NCBI GenBank assembly: GCA_016875225.1
Contig: VGRW01000031.1
Coordinates: forward strand, 1 to 36,761
Direction of reading: 5' to 3'
Length of the DNA stretch: 36,761 nucleotides
Source of the DNA: Deltaproteobacteria bacterium
GTDB taxonomy: Bacteria > Myxococcota_A > UBA9160 > SZUA-336
Position 1 is the first letter of the stretch. Every line of letters begins with the position of its first letter. The notes beneath the pieces were generated by a model that was given only the letters and a program-made list of their open reading frames with translations, was not told where the DNA came from and made no database searches. A program made the position numbers and the translations under genes. Of the stretch, positions 3,631-7,128 are shown in pieces.

Positions 3631-4839
3631 TCAAGCGCGCGCCGCCCGCGCGCCCGTATCCGGCTCGCGGCAGAGCGCGGCCAGCTCCTCGTCGGCGATC
3701 TCGCTCCGGCCGTCCGCGAGCTCCTGGAAGCGGGCGAAGGCGCGCTCTAGCGCGGCCTCCGAGGGCGCGATCCCCAGCGCGCGCACGCGCGACGCGAAGC
3801 CCGCGCGGCCCGAGAGCTTGCCGAGCACGATCTGCGTGCCGACGGGATGCCCGATCTCGGCCGGATCGACCGCCTCGTACGTCTCGCGGCATTTCAGCAC
3901 CCCGTCCTGGTGGATGCCGGACGCGTGGCGGAAGGCGTTTCCGCCGACGATCGCCTTGTTCGGCGGCACCGCGAATCCCGAGCGGCGCGCGACCGCCTGA
4001 GAGACCGCCCAGATCCCGCGCGTGTCCACGCCGGTCTCGACGCCGAGCGCCTCGCCGTGCACGCGCAGCGCCATCACGACCTCCTCGAAAGCGGTGTTGC
4101 CCGCTCGCTCGCCCAGCCCGTTCACGGCGACCTCCACCTGGCGCGCGCCGGCCGAAATCGCGGCCAGCGAGTTCGCGGTGGCCATTCCCAGGTCGTCCTG
4201 GCCGTGGAAGGACAGGGTCACGCCGCCCACCTCGGGAACGCGCGCCTGCAGCTCGCGGAACATCGCGGCGACCTGATCGGGCCGCGCACACCCGACGGTG
4301 TCGGGGAGATTGATCGTGGTGGCACCCGCCCCGATCGCCACGCGCACCAGCCGGGCGATCAGCTCCGGGTCCGAGCGCGTCGCGTCCATGCAGCTCCACT
4401 CGACGTCGTCGGTGTAGCCGCGTGCCCGCTCGACCGCCGCGCGCGCCATTTCGACGACCTCGTCCGCGCCGCGGTGCAGCTGGTGCGCGAGGTGGATCTC
4501 GGAGCTCGACAGGAACACGTGGATGCGCGGGCTTCGCGCGCCGCGCAGCGCGAGCCAGCTGCGGTCGACCTCGGCCGGGATCGCGCGCGAAAGACCGCAG
4601 ACGCGCGCGCGTCTCACGCACTCCGCGACGGCGCGCACCGCCTCGTGCTCGCCGGCCGACGATCCCGGAAAGCCGGCCTCGATCACGTCGACGCCCATTC
4701 CATCGAGGAGCGTCGCGATCTCGACCTTCGCGGCCTTCGAGAAGCAGACGCCCGCCGCCTGCTCGCCGTCGCGGAGCGTCGTGTCGAAGACGACGACGCG
4801 CTCGCGACCCGTTTGGTTGGAAGAATTCACGCCCTGCAT
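3631..4839 (-). CDS. leuA: 2-isopropylmalate synthase, short form lacking the C-terminal regulatory domain
   Basis: Condenses acetyl-CoA with 2-oxoisovalerate, the committed step to leucine. The alpha-isopropylmalate/homocitrate synthase barrel is complete at its start: DTTLRDGEQ at 19-27, then [25 protein letters not shown] near 239-249, and [13 protein letters not shown] at 304-316, which is typical of LeuA. The protein has 402 residues against about 510-530 for feedback-inhibited LeuA, and the C-terminal allosteric domain is missing. The metal motif, usually HxH before D(D/N)LG, reads H212-G-Q214-D-D-L-G, so the second His is Gln. Homocitrate or citramalate synthase were considered; the leucine attenuator directly upstream favours LeuA. 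The start ATG has a strong AGGAGGT 4 nt upstream. The enzyme subtype is less certain than the family. Confidence 0.85.
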
Positions 4840-4906
4840 GCTGACCTCCTCGGAGCGTCTCGGCCGCCGGGCCGGCGAAGGAGGTCGCGGGAGCTTCCCG
4901 CGGGCG

Positions 4907-4941
4907 AAAAAAAACCCCTCCGGCCGGCGCGGCGGGAGAGG
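4907..4941 (-). terminator. Rho-independent attenuator terminator upstream of leuA
   Basis: On the minus strand a GC-rich stem runs from CCTCTCCCGCCG (4941-4930), loop CGC, to CGGCCGGAGGGG (4926-4915). It pairs 11 of 12 positions, one of them G-U, with one C-C mismatch. It is followed by eight consecutive T (4914-4907). It ends 67 nt before the leuA ATG and after the leader peptide stop, so it would end transcription before leuA unless disrupted. Confidence 0.9.
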
Positions 4942-4968
4942 TCCGATTCCTTGCGACTGGTCTGGTGC

Positions 4969-5049
4969 TCAGCCTCTGAGCACCAGGTGGACCCCGCCCG
5001 CCCTGGTAAGGCCGAGAAGAAGCAGCGCGGTTTGGGTCCGGCGAATCAC
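4969..5049 (-). CDS. leuL: leu leader peptide (26 residues, four consecutive Leu codons)
   Basis: Short reading frame GTG to TGA, too small for standard gene callers. It encodes (M)IRRTQTALLLLGLTRAGG followed by VHLVLRG. Codons 9-12 are CTG CTT CTT CTC (5025-5014) and another Leu, CTT, follows Gly at 5010-5008. The arrangement resembles the enterobacterial LeuL pattern (Leu run, then a Gly/Arg-rich tail). An in-frame TAA 12 nt upstream means the GTG is the only start available before the Leu run. No Shine-Dalgarno sequence is seen. The candidate promoter's -10 ends only 9 nt before the GTG, so translation may be leaderless. Its role is to sense charged leucyl-tRNA, not to make a functional product. 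Confidence 0.82.
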   Translation of the reverse strand: MIRRTQTALLLLGLTRAGGVHLVLRG

Positions 5050-5058
5050 GATGCCGCG

Positions 5059-5087
5059 ACGTTACGTGCGCGCTCCGCACGCGTCAA
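5059..5087 (-). promoter_or_regulatory. Candidate sigma70 promoter for the leu leader
   Basis: Minus strand: TTGACG (5087-5082), a 17-nt spacer, then TAACGT (5064-5059), directly after the acetyltransferase stop. The -35 matches consensus at 5 of 6 positions. The spacer itself is an inverted repeat, CGTGCG-N5-CGCACG, which could be an operator. The predicted transcription start would fall within a few bases of the leader GTG. Confidence 0.5.
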
Positions 5088-6065: not shown

Positions 6066-7085
6066 TCAGGCGATCGCGCGGGCGAGCGCGTCGCGGATGC
6101 ACGCGGTGAACGCGGCGGTCCCGAGCGTCCCGCCGACGTCGCGCGTGGTCCGGCCGCTCGCGATCGCGCCGAGGATCGCCCCGCGAAGCCGGCTTGCGAG
6201 CTCGAAGTGCCGCGCATGCTCGAGCAGAAGCGCAAGCGCCAGCAGGGCCGCGGTCGGATTGCACACCCCGCTTCCCGCGATGTCGGGCGCGGTCCCGCCG
6301 GCGGGGTCGAAGATCGCCACGTCGATCTCGCCCGATTTCGCGAACGAGTAGTTGCCGCTGGCGCCAAGCCCCATGCTGCCGATCAGCCCGCAGGCCATGT
6401 CGGAGAGGAAGTCGCCGTACTCGTTCAGCGTCAGCACCACCGAGAACTCGCGCGGCCGCAGGCAGATCTTCGCCAGCAGCGCGTCGAAGAGCTCGACGCG
6501 ATGGGGAACGTCGGGGAATTCGGCCGCGACCTCGCGCACGATCGCCTCGAAGAACCCGTCCGTCGCGCGCTGGATCGTGTGCTTCGAGGACGACGTTACC
6601 GACAGACCGTGTTGCCGCGCGAGCCGGAACGCGAAGCGCGCGGCCTCTGTGCACGGCCTGCGCTCGATGATCCGCAGCGAGACCGCGACGTCCTGGCCGA
6701 TCCGCTGTCCGGGGTCGTCGTACGTGCCGCCCGTCGCGACGCGCACGATCTCGAGCGCCACCGTCTCCTTGAAGCTCGAGGCGATGCCCGGAATCGAGTG
6801 CACCGGCCGGTGGATCACCGAGAGCCCGAGTCGCGTGCGGAGCACGGCGTTGGGGCTCTCGCCCTCGGTCACCGTCGGGTACTTCAGCCCCAGACGGGTG
6901 CGCGCGAGCGACGCCACGACCTCGTCGTACGCGGCTGCCGCGCCGGCGCGACGCCGTTCCAGCGACAGGTCGATCGGCTCGAAGTCGATCGCGAGCGGCA
7001 GGCACCCGGCGACGCCGTGCACCGACTCGCGCAGCTCCGGCCCGATCCCGTCGCCGAGCAACTCCGTGATCACGAGCGCTTTCAT
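6066..7085 (-). CDS. Isocitrate/isopropylmalate-type dehydrogenase (isocitrate-like substrate loop)
   Basis: 339 residues; NAD(P)-dependent oxidative decarboxylase of a 2-hydroxy acid. Family landmarks: LLGDGIGPE near the N-terminus, an arginine set (VLR, HRP, EIVR), SSKHTIQRATDGFFE in the catalytic Lys region, YGDFLSDMACGLIGSMGLGASGNYSF, and GGTAPDIAGSGVCNPTAALL in the cofactor loop. The substrate loop reads ESPNAVLR, keeping the S-x-N that binds isocitrate in IDH, so isocitrate or a close analogue is more likely than isopropylmalate. Oddities: the cofactor-loop His (usual HGTAP) is Gly, and the usual Asn after the catalytic Lys (K-x-N) is Thr. Because leuA is nearby, leuB remains possible. 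ATG 7085 has GGGAGGG directly upstream. Confidence 0.75.
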   Translation of the reverse strand: MKALVITELLGDGIGPELRESVHGVAGCLPLAIDFEPIDLSLERRRAGAAAAYDEVVASLARTRLGLKYPTVTEGESPNAVLRTRLGLSVIHRPVHSIPGIASSFKETVALEIVRVATGGTYDDPGQRIGQDVAVSLRIIERRPCTEAARFAFRLARQHGLSVTSSSKHTIQRATDGFFEAIVREVAAEFPDVPHRVELFDALLAKICLRPREFSVVLTLNEYGDFLSDMACGLIGSMGLGASGNYSFAKSGEIDVAIFDPAGGTAPDIAGSGVCNPTAALLALALLLEHARHFELASRLRGAILGAIASGRTTRDVGGTLGTAAFTACIRDALARAIA

Positions 7086-7128
7086 GACCCTCCCGAGCGG
7101 ATTGCTAGACTCGCACAAGGAGGTGCGA

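Follow-up and report, generated by a model that had tools for sequence, protein, structure and literature searches.

The window analysed here, a stretch of 36,761 nucleotides from a Deltaproteobacteria bacterium, very probably carries a classical, ribosome-mediated leucine transcription attenuator ahead of a leuA-type gene. Direct reading of the letters places the whole element at 5049–4907 of the minus strand, in an intergenic region that runs on this strand from the end of a GNAT acetyltransferase gene (5096) to the start of the leuA-type gene (4839).

Leader, arms and promoter of the element

Most of the parts could be read directly in the sequence (Table 1). An earlier note, made from the letters alone, had described a 26-codon GTG leader with leucine codons before leuA, an antiterminator paired at 13 of 14 positions that takes the terminator's 5′ arm, and a terminator paired at 11 of 12 positions and followed by T8; all three descriptions were borne out by direct reading, with one G-U among the pairs of each helix. 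The antiterminator, formed by arm 1 (5002–4989) with arm 2 (4944–4931), and the intrinsic terminator, located between the leader and the structural gene, are mutually exclusive since arm 2 is common to both. To the protector that had been proposed to pair with the antiterminator strand, the minimum free energy (MFE) folds give 13 pairs, in the blocks GGACCC/GGGTCC, CCGC/GCGG and CTG/CAG, instead of 6 bp. The fold of the window's element differs from chance with z = −2.73. A simple promoter/terminator scan of the window picked up neither element.

Table 1. Coordinates of the attenuator parts and of the downstream gene in the window.
Feature	Position	Strand	Basis
−35 box TTGACG	5082..5087	(−)	sequence; conserved in homologous leaders
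−10 box TAACGT, 17 nt from −35, ending 9 nt before GTG	5059..5064	(−)	sequence, homologues, promoter-match clustering
Leader ORF, GTG start at 5049, 26 codons + TGA (4971–4969); peptide VIRRTQTALLLLGLTRAGGVHLVLRG	4969..5049	(−)	orthologous leaders in relatives
Leu control codons 9–12 (CTG CTT CTT CTC, 5025–5014) and 14 (CTT, 5010–5008)	5008..5025	(−)	direct reading
Protector hairpin, 13 pairs, 5039–5023 with 5005–4989, Leu codons in loop	4989..5039	(−)	MFE folds
Arm 1, antiterminator 5′ strand GGCGGGCGGGGTCC	4989..5002	(−)	sequence, alignment of relatives
11-bp hairpin CTGGTGCTCAG-AGG-CTGAGCACCAG, within antiterminator loop, enclosing leader stop (4971–4969)	4962..4986	(−)	fold z = −3.6
Arm 2, common to antiterminator and terminator, GGACCTCTCCCGCC	4931..4944	(−)	sequence, covariation
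Intrinsic terminator hairpin, arm 2 portion ACCTCTCCCGCC (4942–4931) with arm 3 GGCCGGAGGGGT (4925–4914)	4914..4942	(−)	covariation
T8 tract	4907..4914	(−)	direct reading
Shine-Dalgarno AGGAGG of leuA	4845..4850	(−)	direct reading
Short leuA, 402-aa 2-isopropylmalate-synthase-type enzyme	3631..4839	(−)	HMGL-like and HCS_D2 domains matched

Most of the roughly 68 homologous leaders read have TTGACn, a 17-nt spacer and TAnnnn, with the −10 box mostly ending 6–10 nt ahead of the leader start codon; in this reading the start codon and the promoter were picked jointly by score, and a promoter-clustering test is fairer. In that test, strong promoter matches clustered 70–90 nt before arm 1, with none from −60 to +60 around it. 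Because the −10 box usually ends so close to the leader start, the leader is probably leaderless, and in the window transcription would start near A5052, leaving a 5′ UTR of about 3 nt. Streptomyces (PMC8079986) and S. meliloti (PMC7298713) provide known cases of leaderless attenuator peptides.

The gene controlled by the leader would be one of leucine biosynthesis. Its product scores best as a 2-isopropylmalate synthase, yet under the full-length cut-offs, and a domain search of the 402 residues gave no match to the C-terminal regulatory domain. A full-length bacterial LeuA paralogue lies on another contig of the same genome; by eye, no such leader was seen upstream of it, and it seems continuous with the preceding coding region. 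We infer from these sequences that a synthase devoid of the feedback domain, under transcriptional control, may work beside one having that domain. Two further genes of the window were noted on the minus strand: an isocitrate/isopropylmalate-dehydrogenase-family gene (6066–7118) upstream of the acetyltransferase, whose top NCBIfam matches are isocitrate dehydrogenases, each under its cut-off, and a gene for a protein bearing a PEP-CTERM sorting signal (1673–2302).

Conservation and covariation across the class

Wherever the sequence upstream of a short-LeuA orthologue was readable, it held the arms and a leader rich in Leu, with 4–8 Leu among the 12 codons preceding arm 1 in most relatives. 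An RNA model built from the sequences of 25 relatives matched 71 of 91 genomes of the class, a tally that takes in a few genomes with weak, antisense or non-Leu matches (G002, G004, G047 and G090), and 38 of the 43 good-quality ones. Outside the class there were two convincing matches (G296 and G307), both Leu leaders ahead of short LeuA. The relatives that bear names are metagenome-assembled genomes of Deltaproteobacteria/Myxococcales. The leucine run and paired arms, whose absence from close relatives would, according to the earlier note, have spoken against an attenuator, are thus present there and covary, with leuA downstream.

Several weak R1 matches (L203, L204 and L207) looked like chance, and pattern matches at G018:C134, G004:C2 and G006:C48 were seemingly unrelated, having neither a Leu-run leader nor a conserved gene. 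One locus (L197, G004:C132) has the same promoter spacing and arms with a leader, MSRQPGQRVLYMGLKPVITVVMTDGGEVRPA, that contains no Leu run; the 466-aa product of the gene downstream matched no NCBIfam model. At another (L202/L243, G002:C492), the candidate leader MRTGNLDHAKTFEFELSQLESSQGKRTGGVSTPAAGWVLSDFAD stands ahead of the terminator core, which a gene follows. An 11-Mb genome from the phylum has a Leu-run frame close to a G+C-rich terminator (L200, G260:C39), possibly a separate leucine attenuator.

Where the attenuator is not ahead of short LeuA it is usually, judging by the protein start, ahead of a yeast-type 2-isopropylmalate synthase; the one such protein checked passes TIGR00970 with 781.9 bits against a cut-off of 697.4. 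The same attenuator precedes two non-orthologous 2-isopropylmalate synthases, the second in other families, so that regulation follows the reaction. This arrangement supports both leuA types as working leucine enzymes.

The covariation check in relatives, suggested by the earlier note, revealed compensatory changes in both alternative helices. For the antiterminator, 89.4% of cells were paired, with 15 double-change cells against 6.8 in shuffles; for the terminator (25 sequences), the figures were 99.7% and 9 against 2.1, the double changes falling at 3 pairs. Both helices exceeded all 500 shuffles for percent paired, double-change cells and covariation score; the number of pairs and of pair types was not clearly above shuffles for either helix. 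These shuffles are uncorrected for relatedness, and slides of the partner by 1–3 columns, which keep relatedness, also favoured the real register. For 39 leaders that had not gone into the model, the alignment of which had been fitted to the structure, arm 1 paired at 86.1% with its own arm 2 and at 82.6% with the arm 2 of others (0 of 5000 permutations), and A-T/G-C double changes occurred at one pair. The protector helix changes register across the class (68.6% paired), and a single-register protector for the entire class is only partly supported. The T tract, intact in the window, is short or interrupted in many relatives.

That poor T tract in some relatives would fit another explanation, in which a conserved uORF or a protein-binding RNA acts on leuA translation or on termination by Rho, beside an incidental terminator. 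Actinobacterial leuA leader peptides offer a precedent, being similar leaderless Leu-run ORFs without a typical terminator, and S. coelicolor leuA leader mutations behaved unlike classical attenuation (PMC1262725, PMC8079986). However, the pairing of arms 2 and 3 is maintained at 99.7% with double changes, the window has T8, and the mutually exclusive antiterminator covaries, so that we consider this explanation improbable. A Leu-rich frame arising by chance next to an ordinary terminator of the acetyltransferase gene, which ends nearby on the same strand and could be expected to have one, is scarcely credible: the promoter and leader sit between that gene and the terminator, and conservation over most of the class despite differing upstream genes refutes it. 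A generic terminator is likewise ruled out, the core occurring about once per genome: its pattern turned up once in the 3.87-Mb genome, and the reversed control not at all. A riboswitch or T-box sensing leucine or uncharged tRNA directly would also be a structured leader ahead of an amino-acid gene, but it deserves hardly any weight, as no T-box or riboswitch model, the T-box covariance models included, matched the window at gathering or relaxed thresholds, and what is conserved is the codons, the arms and the leader frame.

CTT serves as the last Leu control codon in 61 of the 66 leaders but is rare downstream, at 10% of the Leu codons of the leuA genes sampled there and 1 of 27 in the window's own leuA. 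Codon choice sets attenuator sensitivity (PMC1183508), and the near-invariant CTT allows the selective-charging idea to be tested by comparison beyond the enterobacteria. There may also be a structural reason for CTT.

Ribosome position and the stop-codon hairpin

In the attenuation model that we prefer, transcription would begin almost at the leader GTG. When leucine is plentiful, the ribosome would clear codons 9–14 fast and move over arm 1, or the protector would take arm 1 once the ribosome has passed; with arm 1 unavailable, arms 2 and 3 would pair and transcription would stop at T8, ahead of leuA. When Leu-tRNA is scarce, the ribosome would stall at codons 9–12, covering much of the protector 5′ strand, and the free arm 1 would capture arm 2 as it emerges, preventing the terminator and allowing leuA to be transcribed. 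What the analysis shows is the sequence parts, their conservation, their covariation and the structures compatible with each ribosome position; we infer where transcription starts, that it terminates, how it responds to leucine and what the extra hairpin does.

We folded the RNA with a ribosome, of assumed footprint, placed on one codon after another. For a transcript ending at arm 2, the antiterminator had a probability of about 1 with codons 1–12 in the A site, intermediate at codon 13, and 0–0.21 at codons 14–25. Under this footprint the switch point is thus codon 13, directly after Leu codons 9–12. In the full-length RNA at equilibrium the terminator is still favoured with the ribosome at codons 9–12, and in a ribosome-free transcript that stops at arm 2 the antiterminator wins over the protector. 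These equilibrium folds count against the model, which therefore depends on co-transcriptional timing, with the antiterminator acting kinetically. Such kinetic action is usual for ribosome-mediated attenuation. Also against the model, arm 1 is free once more when a ribosome is parked on the stop codon.

The earlier note had also reported an extra hairpin holding the leader stop codon inside the antiterminator loop; this hairpin exists, with 11 bp rather than 10. Loops folded against their own shuffles gave z = −3.6 for the window, −2.7 for L074 and −2.8 for L075, so each of the three members of the window's family with a short leuA has a strong hairpin, which is weak elsewhere; their hairpin sequences have diverged, yet the stop codon stays at or beside the apical loop. 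Across the class the antiterminator loops averaged z = −0.92 (26 loops), which rules out the hairpin as a class-wide component: it is a lineage- or family-level elaboration. Its stability is about −20 kcal/mol, and a ribosome at the stop codon covers it. In the window's family the hairpin would make the antiterminator loop shorter; a ribosome on the stop codon would open the hairpin and thereby make the antiterminator less favourable.

Tryptophan-codon relatives and known attenuators

The model built on Leu leaders also matched upstream of an MFS transporter of about 390 aa, with E values from 1e-14 to about 6e-6 (L208–L211, L213, L214, L216, L220, L223, L226 and L230–L233, some assigned by eye). 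In these leaders Trp codons lie directly ahead of arm 1, as in ...AWTVWKWKVGGG, ...AWTVWKWKVGGGAPGR and ...LSWWKRAAGEEWPD. Of the 30 MFS orthologues checked, 9 had arm triples and leader Trp by a strict automatic search and about six others by eye; in roughly half nothing was seen. At one locus (L242, G019:C50 133500–137700), an MFS orthologue directly follows a Leu-attenuated short leuA, as in one operon. The shared terminator sequence suggests a common origin of the Leu and Trp attenuators. On balance we lean slightly towards a class-wide family with one RNA chassis (a promoter abutting a leaderless leader and three competing arms that stay near-identical in sequence), in which both the target gene and the sensed amino acid have changed: Leu codons precede the two non-orthologous 2-isopropylmalate synthases, Trp codons the MFS transporter. 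If the Trp reading is true, this otherwise anonymous transporter is predicted to move tryptophan or a related or aromatic compound, a prediction of substrate that can be tested.

None of the Rfam 15 leader models matched the window, Leu_leader being absent from the matches even at E up to 10, and searches of open-access literature turned up no description for this clade. The attenuator therefore adds an RNA family missing from Rfam, for a class known here mainly via metagenome-assembled genomes, and indicates the likely control of its leuA genes.

The enterobacterial leuABCD attenuator (leuL, Rfam Leu_leader) has a Leu-codon leader, the protector/antiterminator/terminator logic and leuA downstream. 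The element described here shares the Leu-codon leader, the competing arms and the downstream leuA, but differs in being probably leaderless, in having a single short leuA and a family-specific stop-codon hairpin, and in its CTT-rich control codons, which are CUA in the enterobacterial leu leader (PMC1183508). The actinobacterial leuA leader or LEU element (PMC1262725; LeuL1 of S. lividans, PMC8079986) likewise has a leaderless Leu-run ORF (MRFGLLLLSCRGEGL) before leuA. That element is described as a pseudoknot or alternative structure with no typical terminator (PMC1262725, PMC8079986), in contrast to the conserved terminator and mutually exclusive antiterminator seen here. The S. meliloti trpL attenuator is also leaderless, its transcript beginning at the leader ATG, but contains Trp codons and precedes a different gene (PMC7298713). 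As far as the libraries searched show, the family is undescribed; its mechanism is already known, and the apparent re-use from Leu to Trp is its most novel part.
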